Source of the DNA: an uncultured Bacillota bacterium
GTDB taxonomy: Bacteria; Bacillota_I; Bacilli_A; RF39; UBA660
Assembly (NCBI GenBank): GCA_946630315.1
Contig: CAMOYT010000014.1
Location: forward strand, 1-33,716
Direction of reading: 5' to 3'
Length of the DNA stretch: 33,716 nucleotides
Numbering within the stretch: position 1 is the first letter of the stretch; the number at the start of each line of letters is the position of its first letter. The translations under genes and the position numbers were made by a program. Below, piece by piece: positions 1 through 24,657 of this stretch. The notes beneath the pieces are model-generated. The model worked only from the letters and a program-made list of their open reading frames with translations. It was not told where the DNA came from and ran no database searches.

Positions 1-1921
1 AACGCATTACTTTATCAACAAAACGTTTACATCCTCTTAATGAATCAGTACTCCAAGGAGCATCCATTTGATAATCTCCCATAAACATTTCATATAAACG
101 TAATGTATCTGCTCCATATTCATTAACTATATCATCTGGATTAATTACATTTCCTTTTGATTTAGACATTTTCTCATTATTAGATCCTAATACCATACCA
201 TGAGAAACACGAGTCCAAATCATTTCTTTCTTAGGTACTAATCCAATATTATATAAGAATTGTACCCAGAAGCGTGCATATAATAAGTGTCTTGCAGTAT
301 GTTCCATTCCACCATTATACCAATCTACTTTATCCCAATATTTCATAGCATCCATACTAGCAAACTCTTTATCATTATGAGGATCCATAAATCTTAAGAA
401 ATACCAAGAACTTCCTGCCCAGTTTGGCATAGTATCAGTCTCTCTCTTAGCTGGTCCTCCACAACAAGGACAAGTAGTATTAACCCAATCTTCAATTTTA
501 GCAAGTGGACTCTCTCCTGTATCAGTAGGTTCATATTCAGCAACATCTGGTAATAATAAAGGTAAATCTTCTTCCTTCATTGGTTGCCATCCACACTTTT
601 CACAATAAATCATTGGAATTGGTTCTCCCCAGAATCTTTGTCTTGAGAATATCCAATCACGCATCTTGTAATTGTTAACTCTCTTACCAATTCCCTTTTC
701 TTCTAGCATATCAGAAATTGCTTCTCTTGCTTCATCAACAACCATACCATCAAATTCTTCTGAGTTCATCATCTTATAACCATGACCACCCATATAATCT
801 TGTTTTTCGATAGCATGTTCTGAAATATCTCCACAATCTATAACTTGAATAATCTCTAAGTTATGTTCTTTAGCATATTCAAAGTCTCTTTGATCATGAC
901 TAGGTACAGCCATAACAGCACCTGTTCCATAATCACCTAATACAAAGTCTCCTAAGAACACTGGAACTTCTTTTCCATTAACTGGATTAATAGCTTTAAT
1001 ACCATCAATCATAACACCAGTTTTACCTTTATTTAATTCAGTTCTATCCATTGCACTCTTCTTAGCTGTCTCTTTTATATAGGCTTCTACTTCTTTTTTA
1101 TTCTTAACTCTTGGCATCAATTCTTTAATTAATTTTCCATCAGGAGCAATTACAAAGAAAGTAATACCATAAATAGTCTCTGGACAAGTAGTAAATACTG
1201 AGAATTTACCACCATCTACTATATCAACATTAATTTCAACACCAGTTGATTTACCAATCCAATTAATTTGTCCTAATTTAACTCTTTCAGCAAAATTAGT
1301 ATCTTTTAATCCCTCTAATAAGTCTTCTGCATAATCACTCATTCTAAGCATCCATTGACTCTTCTCTTTTTGTTCTACTTGAGCCCCACATCTCTCACAT
1401 ACTCCACCAGCAGCATCCTCATTAGAAAGAACAGTCTTACATTCAGGACACCAGTTTACTGGAATAGTATCTTTATAAGCCATATCATGCTTATAAAATT
1501 GTAAAAATTGCCATTGAGTCCATTTATAATAATCAGGATCAGTAGTTGCAAACTCTCTACTCCAATCAAATGAAAAACCTAATGATTTCATTTGACCTTT
1601 AAAAGTCTTAATATTTTCTTTAACGGCTTCTTTAGGATGGATATGATTCTTAATAGCATATTGCTCTGCAGGAGCTCCAAATGAATCCCATCCCATTGGA
1701 TATAATACATTATATCCTTGCATTCTCTTCATTCTAGCCATAGCATCCAAAGCAGTATAACTACGAACATGACCTACATGAAGTCCTGCTCCACTTGGAT
1801 AAGGAAATTCCACTAATATATAATAAGGTTTCTTCTTCTTATCTCCAGTCTTTGCTTCAAAAGTCTTATTATCATCCCAATATTTTTGCCATTTCTTTTC
1901 TATATCTATAAAACTAGACAT
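1..1921 (-). CDS. leuS: Leucyl-tRNA synthetase, 3' end cut off by window
   Basis: Charges tRNA-Leu with leucine in the cytoplasm; class I aminoacyl-tRNA synthetase. The ATG at 1921-1919 opens a frame that runs off the window start, so the C-terminal anticodon-binding part is missing. The HIGH motif appears as HVGH at residues 48-51 (1769-1780), inside PSGAGLHVGH. The KMSKS motif is exact at 158-172, followed by GNVINPDDIV, which is typical of LeuS. Between them lie the editing insertion and two zinc-ribbon-like Cys pairs (CPEC/CERC and CEKC/CPCC). The start overlaps the stop of the upstream membrane-protein gene by 8 bases (ATGTCTAG), so the two are translationally linked. An AAAGGA site sits 11 bases upstream. 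The T-box leader upstream of the pair points to control by uncharged tRNA-Leu. Family assignment is secure. Confidence 0.97.
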   Translation of the reverse strand, partial: MSSFIDIEKKWQKYWDDNKTFEAKTGDKKKKPYYILVEFPYPSGAGLHVGHVRSYTALDAMARMKRMQGYNVLYPMGWDSFGAPAEQYAIKNHIHPKEAVKENIKTFKGQMKSLGFSFDWSREFATTDPDYYKWTQWQFLQFYKHDMAYKDTIPVNWCPECKTVLSNEDAAGGVCERCGAQVEQKEKSQWMLRMSDYAEDLLEGLKDTNFAERVKLGQINWIGKSTGVEINVDIVDGGKFSVFTTCPETIYGITFFVIAPDGKLIKELMPRVKNKKEVEAYIKETAKKSAMDRTELNKGKTGVMIDGIKAINPVNGKEVPVFLGDFVLGDYGTGAVMAVPSHDQRDFEYAKEHNLEIIQVIDCGDISEHAIEKQDYMGGHGYKMMNSEEFDGMVVDEAREAISDMLEEKGIGKRVNNYKMRDWIFSRQRFWGEPIPMIYCEKCGWQPMKEEDLPLLLPDVAEYEPTDTGESPLAKIEDWVNTTCPCCGGPAKRETDTMPNWAGSSWYFLRFMDPHNDKEFASMDAMKYWDKVDWYNGGMEHTARHLLYARFWVQFLYNIGLVPKKEMIWTRVSHGMVLGSNNEKMSKSKGNVINPDDIVNEYGADTLRLYEMFMGDYQMDAPWSTDSLRGCKRFVDKVMR

Positions 1922-2288
1922 TCTTAATCATTCCTTTCTTTTTATAAAACAAATAAACAATATGATAACTAATTAATAAAACTAATACAATAGATAATCC
2001 ACCAACTAATAATCTAATAACAAAATTCTCAAATAACATTATTAAACTACATATAATAGCAATATCTAAACTACTTGTAATAGCAATTATTTGTAATAAC
2101 TGATTATAATTAACTTTCTCTAAATCAAGTCTATATCTCTTAACTAAATAGAGCACTTCTAAAACCTCTTTGTCTTTCTTCTTCCTACCTTTTTTACTCT
2201 TTCTTCTCTTAGCAGGAGCAACAATAAATGCTTCATATATAATGAGCACAAAAATAAAAGTTAATATAAATAAAACAACCTCTTCCAT
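1914..2288 (-). CDS. Small membrane protein between T-box and leuS
   Basis: Unrecognised 124-residue membrane protein. The preferred start is ATG 2288, five bases after a GGAGG site; a TTG at 2300 lies upstream of that site and is unlikely. One hydrophobic helix near residues 4-22 is followed by a strongly basic stretch (KRRKSKKGRKKK), a mixed helix containing KEVLEVLYLVKRYRLDL, then two more hydrophobic segments near 64-86 and 89-112, and a basic C-terminal tail. The layout fits a cytoplasmic basic loop between helices 1 and 2. Proteins of this general form occur in Bacillota, but I cannot assign a function. It is the first gene after the leucine T-box and overlaps leuS by 8 bases, so it should be induced together with leuS under leucine shortage. 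That is inference from position. Confidence 0.85.
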   Translation of the reverse strand: MEEVVLFILTFIFVLIIYEAFIVAPAKRRKSKKGRKKKDKEVLEVLYLVKRYRLDLEKVNYNQLLQIIAITSSLDIAIICSLIMLFENFVIRLLVGGLSIVLVLLISYHIVYLFYKKKGMIKNV

Positions 2289-2298
2289 AAATTCCTCC

Positions 2299-2500
2299 AA
2301 AAAAAATATACTTACTCATAAGGACGATTATCTCGCGGTACCACCTTATTTCATAAGTATACTTATACACTCTATATTGATAACGGAATAACCCAATTGC
2401 TCCTAAGACAAGTTCAAGAGTATTAACTATCTATTTTCACCTAACATAGACTCTCTACAAGTATTTTTCTCCCTACTACTTCTCAGTCATCACAAAATAT
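2299..2500 (-). promoter_or_regulatory. T-box riboswitch, leucine type
   Basis: tRNA-sensing leader ahead of the membrane protein gene and leuS. The conserved T-box AAGGTGGTACCGCG lies at 2347-2334; the variable base is U, matching an A discriminator base as in tRNA-Leu. A terminator can form from TATACTTA and ATAAGG on the 5' side with CCTTAT and TAAGTATA on the 3' side, followed by eight T (2306-2299). The T-box itself lies between the arms, as an antiterminator should. A GAACTTG context upstream (2415-2409) gives CTT (2412-2410) as a candidate leucine specifier codon. The GGAGG site of the first gene starts directly after the T-run. The T-box class is certain; the specifier is read by eye. 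Confidence 0.93.
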
Positions 2501-2535: not shown

Positions 2536-2567
2536 AAAAAAGGAATAATTTATTTAACTATTCCTTT
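2536..2567 (-). terminator. Terminator after the acidic protein gene
   Basis: AAAGGAATA (2567-2559) pairs with TATTCCTTT (2547-2539), followed by six T. The gene's stop codon lies in the loop. Confidence 0.8.
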
Positions 2568-3446
2568 AGCATCTCTTCCTAACATTTCTTTAGTCTTTTT
2601 ACCACTTTTATCTACTTCAATATTATCTATCTTAGAAACATAATATATAGGATTATTATCTTCATAATCAAAATATAAATCACCTAAAGCATTACTAAAG
2701 CCAAAATCATTATCTCTTAAATAAGCCGTAATATCACTAAGCAATTTAGAAGCATTATCATCAGTTAACTCTTTATCATCAAAATTAGCTCTATTATATA
2801 ATTCAACAGCAATTACTAATGGATTACTAATAATAGCAGTCTTCTCATCCTTATTAAAATATAACACTCCTAATGGAAAATCTAATAATTCAGCTTTCTC
2901 TGAAGTAGTAAATATATTATATAAATTATTATCTTTAGTCATTTCTAACAATACTTTTTCAAGTAATTCATCATTACCAAAAGTATTTCTTAATCTTTCA
3001 ACTACAGAATAATCTGAATAACCATCTTGGTCTTTTAACTCTCTTAAAAAGTTTAAAGTATTTACTCCACCTACTTTAGCAAGTTCAATAACAAAATCAT
3101 AATTATCTAATACTTCAGTAGCAATCATAGTAAAATCTTCAATAAACCTTTCACTAGATTCAGCCCAACAAGTAGGATCTCCATCATAGAAAATAATATC
3201 TTTATAGCTATTAACAATATTTAAAATCCTATTTTTCTCTTCTACATTTAGACCTCTTAAAGCATATGTCTGATAATCGTCATTTAACTCACCAGTAGTT
3301 AAATGTTCAAATATAGCATCATTAAGTGCAATAGTCCTATCTTCATCATCTTCATAATTAATAGAATCATTAAACATCCTAATAACAGCTTCTTGTAAAT
3401 CTAAAAGTCTATTAACAGCATTAGTCTTCTTATCTTCTACTGTCAT
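2550..3446 (-). CDS. Unrecognised acidic cytoplasmic protein
   Basis: 298 residues, no signal peptide, no membrane segment, rich in Asp, Glu and Asn, and predicted mostly helical from its composition. I do not recognise a family or a catalytic motif. The start at ATG 3446 is chosen because AGGAG stands 7 bases upstream; in-frame ATG codons further up (3479, 3467) lie inside the GH31 gene and lack a site. The AGGAG overlaps the TAG stop of the GH31 gene, so the two genes are translationally coupled and probably act in one process. A terminator closes the pair. The acidic, soluble character would fit an accessory or regulatory protein, but nothing in the sequence proves it. Confidence 0.85.
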   Translation of the reverse strand: MTVEDKKTNAVNRLLDLQEAVIRMFNDSINYEDDEDRTIALNDAIFEHLTTGELNDDYQTYALRGLNVEEKNRILNIVNSYKDIIFYDGDPTCWAESSERFIEDFTMIATEVLDNYDFVIELAKVGGVNTLNFLRELKDQDGYSDYSVVERLRNTFGNDELLEKVLLEMTKDNNLYNIFTTSEKAELLDFPLGVLYFNKDEKTAIISNPLVIAVELYNRANFDDKELTDDNASKLLSDITAYLRDNDFGFSNALGDLYFDYEDNNPIYYVSKIDNIEVDKSGKKTKEMLGRDAKGIVK

Positions 3447-3456
3447 AATATCACTC

Positions 3457-5877
3457 CTATACTTCATTAATATATTCAAGCAGTCTTAAGAATAAGTTAA
3501 CATAGTCTTTAGAAAGACCAGCTTTCTTAAGTTTACGAATCGCAATTCTCTTTTTACTATTAGCTTCATTACTAAACATTATAGCAGCAATTTTCTCTTT
3601 AGTATATGTTTCAATTTGTAAATCCATCAAGATACTATTAACATCATCATTAATAAGTCTTGCTGCATCTATCTCAATATCTTTACCTTTACAATTTATA
3701 GTTAATTGCCCAATAGTAGGAATATCCTTAATTTCTACTATAAAGTCATTACCATCTACATAGTTTTCACTTTGTACTTTATCAGCATTAAAGAATATAG
3801 TAACATTCTCAGCTTCTTTTGTATTTCTAAATACCATCTTATAATTTCTCTTCTCAGGAGCAATACCACTCTTACCTTCAATAGATCTAATAATAACAGT
3901 ATAGTTATTTCTTAAGTAGTTATAGTCAATAGAAGTCTTTAAGTAGTATCCTTCTTTGTATAAAGAAGTAATTCCATCATCTTCATATAAAGTATAAGTA
4001 TTAGAAACACCAGGGAATATTTGAATTTCCAAATCAGTAGGAAGTCCCACATTTTGATAATCACTTCTGTTACTTAAAGGAATAATACTACCAGCATGAG
4101 CAAATACTGGATAATCTTCTTCTTTGAAGAAAGATATATATTTCTTATTTCCTGGGAATTTCTTTCCAGTAACAAAGTCATACCAAGTTCCATCTGGAAT
4201 AAAGAATCTATGTACAGTACGCATCATTGTCTTATCAGCTTTATCAAGTATAGGACATACTAATAATTGAGAACCAAAATAGTATTGATTTCTATATAAA
4301 GTATCATCATAAACCCACATATAATTATAATAGAAAGGCTGAATAAGAGGTGTACCAGCTCTTGTATAATTGTATGCCTCGGTATATAAGTATGGAATAA
4401 ATCTATGTCTTAATCTCATATAATCAGCTGCTATATTAGCAGTTTGAGCATCCCATACCCAAGGCTCCTTCTTATAATATGGACCACGTGCTCCATGAAA
4501 TCTAAATATTGGAGAGAATGTAGACAATTGTAAATATCTAACATATAATTCCCCTTCTTCTATACCTCCATGGTTACCAGCTACATCATGACTCCACCAA
4601 CTAACTCCTATATTAGCAGCATTTAAATATAAGAATGGTAAATTCTTTAAATTCTCCCAACTAATAGAAGAACTACCACCATATATTATTGGATATCTAT
4701 GAGGAGCAATAACACTACCACGTCCTAGAATCATTCCACGTTTATTATTATTACGTCCTGAATCTAAATACATATAGTGATCAAGTGCCCATAATCTAGT
4801 TACATCATTACCACCAGTTGAATCATTCCAAAAGAAATCTACTCCCACAGATTCAAGAGGATGTAAGAACACTTTAAATAGAACATCTAATAATTTAGGA
4901 TTTAATGGATCAAATTGAATAACTGCTCCATTAGTAACTCCTAAATACTCAGAAGCTTGTTTATAAAAAGCTTCATGTGGATAAATACCTTCAGTTGGAT
5001 TAACAATAAGTCCTACTCTAATACCTCTATTATGAAATTCATCAATCATTCCCTTAGGATTTTTAATTAAAGCAGTATTAAATGTATAACCATTTTTTAA
5101 ATCTCTAAATTGTCCAACATTTCTAATATGCCAATCATTATCAAATAACATAACAGCTAAAGGTATCTTCTTACGTTCAAAATTACGTATAAGTTCATGT
5201 ATAGCCTTATCATCATATTGAATATTTCTACTCCACCAATTACCTAAAGCATATCTAGGTGGCAATGCTGGTGGTCCAGTCATTTTAAAATAATCAAATA
5301 GAGCTTGTTTAAAATCTCTATCATACATAAACACATATAAATCAATATGATCTTTTGGTGGTTCTGCTAAAGTACCATCTTCCATAATTATTTTACTCAA
5401 AGAATCATCTATAGTAGCAAAACCATCTAATGAATACAAACCTTTTTGTAAATTTTTAGGTATATTAACATCTACTCCTACTAGATTACCTAACATATTA
5501 CGAGCTTCTGGATGTCCATAATACCAATCTTTATTTCGATCCCTATCTCTAGAAAGTAAAGTAATCTTTAAATTCTTCATAGGATCAACTTTATTACCTA
5601 CAAAAGGTTGTCCTTTAATATAGTTCAAAGCAAGATATTTAGTAGTAACCTCTACAATATTGGCATCTTGTCTAACAGAAAAATCAGCTAGTCCAATATT
5701 TCTCTTACGGATTAACTGCGTAGGTCTATCAACAAATTGTCCAGCTTGAGAATATTCTAGTCTAATTACACGTTCACTAATAATAGAAATTCTATAATTA
5801 GCACCTTGAACTATGGCTTTAGCATCACTCTTAGCTTTTGTATAATTCACTTCAAACTGTTTTCCAAGTGGATACAT
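3457..5877 (-). CDS. GH31 family glycoside hydrolase-like protein
   Basis: 806 residues, cytoplasmic (no signal peptide). Family GH31 contains alpha-glucosidases, alpha-xylosidases and relatives using a two-Asp retaining mechanism. Visible family signatures: ALPPRYALGNWWSRN near the barrel start, VDFFWNDSTGGND with the nucleophile Asp352, the HRYPI strand, SWENL, and RLRHRFIPYLYT at the barrel end. A beta-sandwich region follows, then a charged helical C-terminal extension of about 70 residues. Residue 402, where GH31 enzymes have the acid/base Asp (S-G-D-x-x-x-S-W), is Ser (GGSSSISW), so ordinary hydrolysis is doubtful. The start at ATG 5877 follows AAGGAAG with good spacing; the in-frame GTG three codons up lies only about two bases from that site. 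The promoter has an extended -10 (TGATATTAT). Substrate unknown. Confidence 0.93.
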   Translation of the reverse strand: MYPLGKQFEVNYTKAKSDAKAIVQGANYRISIISERVIRLEYSQAGQFVDRPTQLIRKRNIGLADFSVRQDANIVEVTTKYLALNYIKGQPFVGNKVDPMKNLKITLLSRDRDRNKDWYYGHPEARNMLGNLVGVDVNIPKNLQKGLYSLDGFATIDDSLSKIIMEDGTLAEPPKDHIDLYVFMYDRDFKQALFDYFKMTGPPALPPRYALGNWWSRNIQYDDKAIHELIRNFERKKIPLAVMLFDNDWHIRNVGQFRDLKNGYTFNTALIKNPKGMIDEFHNRGIRVGLIVNPTEGIYPHEAFYKQASEYLGVTNGAVIQFDPLNPKLLDVLFKVFLHPLESVGVDFFWNDSTGGNDVTRLWALDHYMYLDSGRNNNKRGMILGRGSVIAPHRYPIIYGGSSSISWENLKNLPFLYLNAANIGVSWWSHDVAGNHGGIEEGELYVRYLQLSTFSPIFRFHGARGPYYKKEPWVWDAQTANIAADYMRLRHRFIPYLYTEAYNYTRAGTPLIQPFYYNYMWVYDDTLYRNQYYFGSQLLVCPILDKADKTMMRTVHRFFIPDGTWYDFVTGKKFPGNKKYISFFKEEDYPVFAHAGSIIPLSNRSDYQNVGLPTDLEIQIFPGVSNTYTLYEDDGITSLYKEGYYLKTSIDYNYLRNNYTVIIRSIEGKSGIAPEKRNYKMVFRNTKEAENVTIFFNADKVQSENYVDGNDFIVEIKDIPTIGQLTINCKGKDIEIDAARLINDDVNSILMDLQIETYTKEKIAAIMFSNEANSKKRIAIRKLKKAGLSKDYVNLFLRLLEYINEV

Positions 5878-5936
5878 ACCAAACACTTCCTTATTATTCT
5901 AATAACATAATATCATAAATAAAGAAATTATAAAAG

Positions 5937-5960
5937 AAAAAAAGAGTATTTAACACTCTT
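5937..5960 (-). terminator. Terminator after the VanY-like gene
   Basis: AAGAGT (5960-5955) pairs with ACTCTT (5947-5942), followed by seven T. The stem begins inside the stop codon. Confidence 0.75.
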
Positions 5961-7089
5961 ATTTATCTAAATATCTAACATAATACTCTTCTAATGTAAT
6001 CCCCTCTTCATGTATCTTTTTAGCAATATCTACACCGACATATCTATAATGCCAAGGTTCAGCTCTAAATAAAGTCATATGTTCATATTTTTTCTCATAT
6101 CTAATAATATATCCATACTTATAACTATTATCTAGCATCCACTGATATTCTTTACTATTAGCAAAAACATTAGTACTTCTACTTCCAACATCTATTGCAA
6201 GACCAGTTTGATGCTCACTAAATCCAGGCTTAGCCACATACTTCTCTACATAACTATCTCCATACCATTTACGATAATATTCTTGAGTATCAACTTGATC
6301 ATCATAACTACGATAAGCAGAATTAATAACAATACCAAGCCCATCTTTTTCACAAGCTTTACTCATCTTTATAAAAGCTTCATATGCTTCACTTCTAAGT
6401 TTCATTCCTGCTTCACTAGCATATTTAGTACTTACTTTAACTAAATCAGGATTAAATTTCTTACTTAAAAATCTATGCTTATTAACAACCATATCAATAC
6501 CATAATTCTTCTCTTCAATTGCATCAGTATATGGTTCCTTATCTAAGTCCATATTAACATAGATAACTACATCCTCATCTTCATCTCCTTCAAGATCACT
6601 ATAATTTACATATCTATCATAATTACTTATTTTAGCAAAATCATAACTTAAAAACTCATCTATATATCTAACTCTATCTCGTTTACTAAACTCAGTAACA
6701 TCACTATCACTACCATGACTAAGTATTAAATTAATATCCCCATCACTATATTTCTTTTTTATTAAAGTATTAATATTTTTAATTAAATTCTTATGATTTT
6801 GATAAGTAATTTTCCTATATCTCTCTAAATATTCTTCTTTATAATCACTACTTTCAAATGCTGCATTTAAAGTCTTATTCTCCCCCACTTGTAAAACATA
6901 ATCTTTTTTAAAATGAAATAATATATAATTACTAGCTTTTTCACTATAACCAATCTTTTTAATACTATTAATTTGATATCTATAGAACAGAAAAATAACT
7001 AATAAAATTAAAAGTATTACACCTACTATTTTTAAAATACCCAAATAAGGCTCTTTTAATTTATACTTTCTCTTAGTAACCGTTCCCAT
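5959..7089 (-). CDS. VanY-type D-Ala-D-Ala carboxypeptidase, membrane anchored
   Basis: 376-residue M15B-family peptidase that trims the terminal D-Ala from peptidoglycan stem peptides outside the cell. A short basic N-terminus precedes one hydrophobic anchor (about residues 20-38). The zinc peptidase is at the C-terminus: SAYRSYDDQ, then GFSEHQTGLAIDVG (zinc ligands His and Asp in S-x-H-x-x-G-x-x-x-D), then AEPWHYRYVG (third zinc ligand His). About 150 residues between anchor and peptidase form an extra region with an acidic stretch (DLEGDEDED), longer than in minimal VanY proteins and of unknown role. The start at ATG 7089 follows AGGTGA at four bases; an upstream TTG is not preferred. An extended -10 TGGTATACT (7119-7111) drives it, back to back with the patatin promoter. 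Substrate specificity is inferred. Confidence 0.93.
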   Translation of the reverse strand: MGTVTKRKYKLKEPYLGILKIVGVILLILLVIFLFYRYQINSIKKIGYSEKASNYILFHFKKDYVLQVGENKTLNAAFESSDYKEEYLERYRKITYQNHKNLIKNINTLIKKKYSDGDINLILSHGSDSDVTEFSKRDRVRYIDEFLSYDFAKISNYDRYVNYSDLEGDEDEDVVIYVNMDLDKEPYTDAIEEKNYGIDMVVNKHRFLSKKFNPDLVKVSTKYASEAGMKLRSEAYEAFIKMSKACEKDGLGIVINSAYRSYDDQVDTQEYYRKWYGDSYVEKYVAKPGFSEHQTGLAIDVGSRSTNVFANSKEYQWMLDNSYKYGYIIRYEKKYEHMTLFRAEPWHYRYVGVDIAKKIHEEGITLEEYYVRYLDK

Positions 7090-7110
7090 AAAATCACCTA
7101 CTATATACAA

Positions 7111-24275: not shown

Positions 24276-24657
24276 TGGTGGAGATGAGGAGAATCGAACT
24301 CCTGTCCGAAAATACAGCTACATAAACTTCTACAAGCTTAGTTAACTAATTAATATCTCATATATTCATCCGAGTAATTAACGACCTGGATAATATACTA
24401 AGCCTTTAATTCTTTCTATTTCTTAGGCAGGAAATAGCTATAACCTATAAAAATGAACCTCTCTAAAGCTACTAGGTAATAACTAAAGAGAAGCGCTAGC
24501 CGTTAAATTATTAGGCAAATGCAACAGCTTGGCTTCCACCAAACATGTTAGCAATAGCATTTTTAAATTTGTTTGCGTTTATTTTTTGGTGTCCGTAACG
24601 TGGACATTCGACTTGCCATTCATGCTCTAATATTCCCGTCGAAACCAAATCATCCCC
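24276..24657 (-). ncRNA. ssrA: tmRNA
   Basis: About 382 bases; rescues stalled ribosomes with SmpB. The 5' end GGGGATGATTTGGTTTCGACGGG-like start (GGGGATG, then TTTCGACGGG) pairs with the 3' CATCTCC, followed by A and an encoded CCA (24278-24276). The T-arm GGAGTTCGATTCTCC is complete. The tag frame runs 24576-24511: resume codon GCA, 21 residues, two TAA stops. The tag begins ANKFKNAIAN and ends GGSQAVAFA. The usual Bacilli tag is shorter and ends in ALAA; long tags ending in AFA are known from Mollicutes. Promoter: extended -10 TGGTATAAT about 15 bases upstream of the 5' end. smpB lies 1.2 kb upstream on the same strand. Confidence 0.97.

Follow-up and report, generated by a model that had tools for sequence, protein, structure and literature searches.

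The GH31 protein encoded in the window (the whole 33,716-nt stretch of DNA analysed here) is probably a lineage-wide pseudoglycosidase of RF39 bacteria, a near-core protein that would be kept for a non-hydrolytic binding or scaffold role. Two observations match the usual definition of a pseudoenzyme: a conserved catalytic motif is absent, and the gene is retained under selection. Its coding positions are given below, with residues numbered in the 806-aa (ATG) form.

3457..5886, minus strand: GH31_u1-type protein, pseudoglycosidase candidate, 809 aa from a GTG start
3457-5877, minus strand: the same reading frame from an alternative start, 806 aa from the ATG at 5877
4822..4824, minus strand: codon of Asp352, in the column of the nucleophile Asp341 of LlGH31_u1
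4672..4674, minus strand: codon AGT of Ser402, aligned with the acid/base Asp394 of LlGH31_u1
3808..4362, minus strand: residues 506-690, the proximal and distal C-terminal beta-domains, where purifying selection in the family is strongest

By its fold and sequence family, the protein can be assigned to glycoside hydrolase family 31: Pfam recognizes the GH31 barrel (PF01055, 176.1 bits against a cut-off of 23.5), the GH31 C-terminal domain (PF21365, 58.7 bits against 24.4) and DUF5110. It is the sole match at E <= 0.001 in its 1.46 Mb, 94.6% complete genome, and no signal peptide was seen by eye. In a phmmer search, the best PDB match was 7wj9, a Lactococcus nigerosidase (5e-123); 7wjc and 7wj9 scored 416 and 415 bits, and the next distinct solved protein only 134 bits (5e-38). 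Among solved GH31 proteins, the window protein is thus closest over its full length to LlGH31_u1, which places it by sequence in the GH31_u1 group. In the available text of PMC9061262, LlGH31_u1 is an alpha-1,3-glucosidase of Lactococcus lactis (PDB 7wj9) in which D341 is taken as the nucleophile and D394 as the acid/base, H280 contacts O6, and Q343, H427 and a neighbouring subunit's Y99 contribute to subsite +1. The same source describes a hexamer. Of a hexamer with a C-terminal four-helix domain, by which membership of the GH31_u1 group was also judged, the window protein shows four C-terminal helices in an AlphaFold prediction, at residues 738-805.

The phmmer alignment sets YGGSSSISW of the window protein against FSGDSVISW of 7wj9, and 7wjc is the same enzyme with Ala replacing the Asp that aligns to Ser402. 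A 248-row MAFFT alignment likewise puts S402 in the D394 column and D352 in the D341 column. Of the two residues expected in an active retaining GH31 alpha-glucosidase, the window protein therefore has the nucleophile Asp (Asp352) and has Ser402 in place of the acid/base Asp, as a sequence-only reading of this DNA had claimed; alignment to the characterized enzyme locates the acid/base column at S402. The residues expected of a nigerose-specific alpha-1,3-glucosidase at subsites −1 and +1 (H280, Q343 and H427) are replaced by N293, a gap and N435. According to the accessible part of PMC9061262, the D394A variant of LlGH31_u1 is described as inactive and was crystallized with bound nigerooligosaccharides. 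This variant is the direct analogue of the window protein, by which hydrolysis of an ordinary glycoside should be very slow without a general acid. An AlphaFold model built from a close alignment (66-82% identity) cannot settle the catalysis question, because its confidence is low around the active site and distances there are not measurable.

The GH31 protein is present in 176 of the 193 genomes of the window's GTDB family at E <= 1e-20, leaving 17 without the gene at that threshold. An order-level draw, which overlaps the family-level set, gave a match in 254 of 288 genomes at 1e-30, and all genomes listed were from the window's family. One related locus (L064) comes from Candidatus Faecimonas gallistercoris CHK189-3136, which the available text of PMC8035907 places in order RF39, family CAG-611; on this basis we assign the lineage to RF39. 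In three genera (G034/G169, G038/G172 and G051/G184), the gene was absent from both genomes searched; these pairs would permit a test for co-lost or co-gained genes. We translated 296 loci and removed 9 short sequences and 40 that were duplicated or contained in others, leaving 247 proteins: 229 family copies, the window's included, and 18 outgroup copies from other families of the class. The family copies comprise about one per genus together with divergent ones, loci from the order and class draws and 80 further loci, so that the sampling is not random and favours the window's neighbours. One locus, L139 (G083), is a 1206-aa open frame with about 350 in-frame, Asn/Gln-rich, low-complexity residues ahead of GH31, the only such N-terminal extension among the loci checked.

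We found that the acid/base residue has been lost in essentially all family copies. Its column reads S in 96 of the 229 copies, K in 61, E in 29, N in 10, R in 10, Q in 9 and H in 5, with a few other letters, and D in only 2, whereas all 18 outgroup copies have D; a contrast of this size is beyond chance or sequencing error. The nucleophile is D in 212 of 229 copies and N, E, T, S, R or G in the other 17. We scored seven −1 or catalytic residues (D231, D341, R378, D394, D423, R451 and H453), of which R378, D423 and R451 were picked from GH31 motifs and outgroup invariance; not all seven are contacts named in the available text of PMC9061262. All 18 outgroup copies carry the full canonical set, and none of the 229 family copies does. 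The two Asp copies (L228 and L276) were considered as restored canonical enzymes and rejected, because both lack D231 and H453. The O6 contact H280 is missing in 229/229 family copies and the +1 residue H427 in 227/229, and Q343 (+1) is also lost almost throughout.

We counted changes on a FastTree phylogeny that was built without the catalytic columns and covers 164 representatives plus 19 canonical proteins. The minimum number of changes is 2 for D versus not-D at the acid/base site (44 when each letter there is scored), 13 for D versus not-D at the nucleophile and 9 for H453; these counts are approximate because 54 of the 180 inner branches are weakly supported. The Ser copies, which form the window's subclade, are nested in a Lys-rich grade, in which the remainder of the −1 pocket is often retained. 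In the simplest history, the acid/base residue would have been lost once at the base of the family, the site would then have drifted until the window's subclade became fixed for Ser, and other lineages would repeatedly have lost what remained of the pocket. Nucleophile and −1 losses in several lineages followed the acid/base loss.

The gene is nonetheless under strong purifying selection, with a median omega of 0.067 (Nei-Gojobori, our own script; 40 usable of 42 disjoint pairs). By domain, omega is 0.096 for the N-terminal domain, 0.082 for the barrel, 0.026 and 0.024 for the proximal and distal C-terminal domains and 0.064 for the tail. We then compared domains at a matched overall identity of 36-42% in separate alignments. 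Canonical proteins show identities of 0.51 in the barrel, 0.36 in the proximal C-domain and 0.22 in the distal C-domain, while family proteins show 0.39, 0.51 and 0.41, respectively. Conservation is higher in the proximal C-domain than in the barrel for 463 of the 468 family pairs but for none of the 73 canonical ones, and two other identity bands agree (canonical 0/33 versus family 2949/3000; canonical 0/15 versus family 2864/3000); these counts are descriptions rather than independent tests, because pairs share sequences. Columns that are at least 95% conserved number 54 in the family versus 64 in the outgroup for the barrel, 23 versus 2 for the proximal C-domain, 20 versus 0 for the distal C-domain and 16 versus 0 for the tail, a less fair comparison than the one at matched identity because the outgroup spans more families. 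Residues invariant in the family include E440, Y468, K469, W473 and E500, the EDDG and FRNT motifs, and KRI near 776. Constraint has shifted from the barrel to the C-terminal beta-domains in this family, and this shift is the strongest sign that the retained function differs from the old one.

The data supports a mechanism whereby this family of small-genome Bacilli (order RF39) would have inherited an intracellular GH31_u1 alpha-glucosidase whose general acid/base disappeared at the family's base; the protein would then have been kept as near-core for a non-hydrolytic role. The new role would be carried mainly by a surface of the C-terminal domains, as an interface to a partner, an oligomer or a ligand. 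The protein of the window's subclade may in addition bind, but not cleave, a glucose-like ligand and serve as a scaffold or regulator that responds to sugar, because its nucleophile and most of its −1 pocket residues still stand. Pocket retention is not claimed as proof of a ligand, because by our own count other invariant barrel positions in the Ser subclade are retained about as often. The sequence-only reading had expected ordinary hydrolysis to be weakened and had offered a sugar-binding or regulatory pseudoenzyme as one explanation; both are supported by the family-wide acid/base loss, the erosion of the nucleophile and −1 site in many lineages and the move of constraint to the C-terminal domains.

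That same pocket is a counter-point to a pseudoglycosidase. All 96 Ser copies keep the nucleophile, and 95 of them keep all six residues besides the acid/base, as an active enzyme would, compared to 25 of the 133 other family copies. The protein could thus still be an enzyme without the usual acid, a retaining transferase or hydrolase that forms a glycosyl-enzyme at Asp352 from donors with good leaving groups, such as a glycosyl phosphate. Acid-independent chemistry with such donors is known for acid/base mutants of retaining glycosidases, and we counted it in favour of this explanation. We nevertheless judge it unlikely. The nucleophile itself is gone in 17 of the 133 copies outside the Ser subclade, so the family's shared function cannot need it; the +1 residues Q343 and H427 and the O6 contact H280 have almost disappeared; and constraint lies mainly outside the barrel. 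The earlier suggestion of a transferase or of an activated donor is compatible with the intact nucleophile and pocket of the subclade, but no observation made here favours it.

Alternatively, the acid/base could have moved to Glu404, His436 or Glu440, leaving an altered but ordinary glycosidase. Residue 404, two positions past Ser402, is Glu in 92 and Asp in 1 of the 96 Ser copies and is acidic in no outgroup copy, a detail that the sequence-only reading missed; His436 is present in 96/96 Ser copies and Glu440 in 229/229 family copies. The window protein, however, has Ser at 404, as does one further Ser-subclade copy. Glu440 is just as fixed where the nucleophile has been lost, and its conservation is therefore not about catalysis; it is also Glu in 44% of the canonical outgroup copies. 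A relocated acid is accordingly doubtful as an explanation for this protein. It is highly improbable that the gene is an assembly artefact or the decaying relic of a glycosidase leaving reduced genomes: points in its favour are the free variation of catalytic residues across many lineages, the small size of the genomes and the 17/193 that lack the gene at the threshold used, but the median omega contradicts decay, nearly all listed GH31 places are open frames (among the matches listed, stops occur only in G186, one TGA, and G302, one TAA), and identical substitutions recur across many independent assemblies.

The neighbourhood of the gene also bears on the pseudoglycosidase interpretation. The adjoining features of the window are the following.

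5959..7110, minus strand: VanY-type carboxypeptidase gene, upstream of GH31 on the same strand
2550..3479, minus strand: acidic protein, likely start ATG 3446 (298 aa), the next gene downstream of GH31
2317-2499, minus strand: T-box leader RF00230 (Rfam, 108 bits)
1917-2288, minus strand: small membrane protein of about 128 aa, without a Pfam or NCBIfam match
1 to about 1920, minus strand: gene reading as leuS, running off the window

In the Ser subclade, 77 of the 84 testable copies have vanY upstream of GH31. Among the non-Ser family copies, pyruvate kinase takes that upstream place in 40 of 124 testable cases, with a gap of 8-32 bases in 40 of the 41 gaps listed (its identity was checked for L163 with Pfam PK). 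Canonical copies, in several genomes, adjoin carbohydrate genes instead: Pfam identified GH3 (L278 and L282), GH35/GH42 (L288), ABC permeases (L283), glycogen phosphorylase (L291) and GH43 (L292), a contrast that favours the pseudoglycosidase reading. The eight outgroup neighbours were chosen by appearance and hence form no census; others look like housekeeping genes, for example the neighbours of L280 and L281. These neighbours bear on a more specific, rather unlikely picture, in which a whole lineage of gut Bacilli would have converted its alpha-glucosidase, a single copy in the window's genome, to a near-core scaffold or sensor of sugar in the cytoplasm that works by way of the C-terminal beta-domains and not the active site, with pyruvate kinase or the carboxypeptidase beside it. 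If true, the protein would link sugar supply with glycolysis in those lineages where its gene follows pyruvate kinase by 8-32 bases.

The acidic protein downstream had been called unrecognised and coupled to the GH31 protein. It has no Pfam or NCBIfam match, in agreement with the former, and its all-helical predicted fold (pLDDT 87.7) gave no PDB match below E 0.8. The coupling is real in the window but not general: the acidic protein is the gene after GH31 in 45 of the 91 Ser-subclade copies that could be tested and in none of the 119 others. Its relatives share 23-36% identity with the window's copy, while the GH31 protein shows 66-82% over a similar set of loci and thus diverges far more slowly. 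Based on this distribution and poor conservation, we rejected the acidic protein as a general key partner. The small membrane protein is found downstream of GH31 in 94 of 120 testable representatives. An operon joining the two was set aside; because the T-box leader separates them and its unit leads into the likely leuS, their adjacency is synteny. Elsewhere in the window, Rfam places a tmRNA gene (RF00023) at 24276-24657 on the minus strand.

We also surveyed alpha-glucan enzymes in 36 same-genus genomes, several of them incomplete. Phosphorylase was absent in 36/36, a point in favour of the pseudoglycosidase; a GH13 match was present in 22, the window's genome included, and absent in 14 (our own count), four of which (G013, G157, G254 and G348) carry this GH31. 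The window's genome encodes a GH13 protein of about 620 aa (G000:C30, L297), whose gene adjoins, upstream or downstream, a lactate/malate dehydrogenase-like gene. An absence of all alpha-glucan enzymes was rejected, since the catalytic motifs of this GH13 look intact by eye, and alpha-glucosides may therefore still be metabolized by these cells, which counts against the pseudoglycosidase. As reported in the part of PMC7301438 available, most carbohydrate-storage genes are missing from RF39 genomes. Together with the phosphorylase and GH13 absences, this report indicates that the GH31 protein persists despite an apparent lack of alpha-glucan storage.

Annotation routinely labels GH31 genes as alpha-glucosidase or alpha-xylosidase, and they are then taken as evidence for sugar use; across this entire family of uncultured gut bacteria, the label would be mistaken. 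The family also offers a natural series at one catalytic position (Asp to Ser, Lys, Glu, Asn, Arg and more), with or without the nucleophile, which is useful for studying the transition from enzyme to non-enzyme. Retained in 176 of 193 reduced genomes, the GH31 protein is a promising starting point for work on the biology of these bacteria. In the open-access literature searched, we found no GH31 pseudoenzyme of this kind, nothing relevant on RF39 with GH31 and no printed GH31 subfamily classification.

Compared to LlGH31_u1, the window protein is homologous over its full length, is ranked by Foldseek as closest to 7wj9, and keeps the nucleophile and several −1 residues. It differs in having Ser in place of the acid/base Asp394 and in the replacement of H280, Q343, F391 and H427 in the alignment, and across its family the order of domain conservation is inverted. 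Pseudoglycosidases are known in other families, including YKL-39 (GH18) and the Klotho proteins, which, in the available text of PMC7828330, keep a glycosidase fold after the loss of catalytic residues and are thought to serve binding, a likeness to the role proposed here. Those are animal proteins of other GH families, whereas the window protein is of the GH31_u1 type, probably cytoplasmic and nearly universal in one bacterial family.
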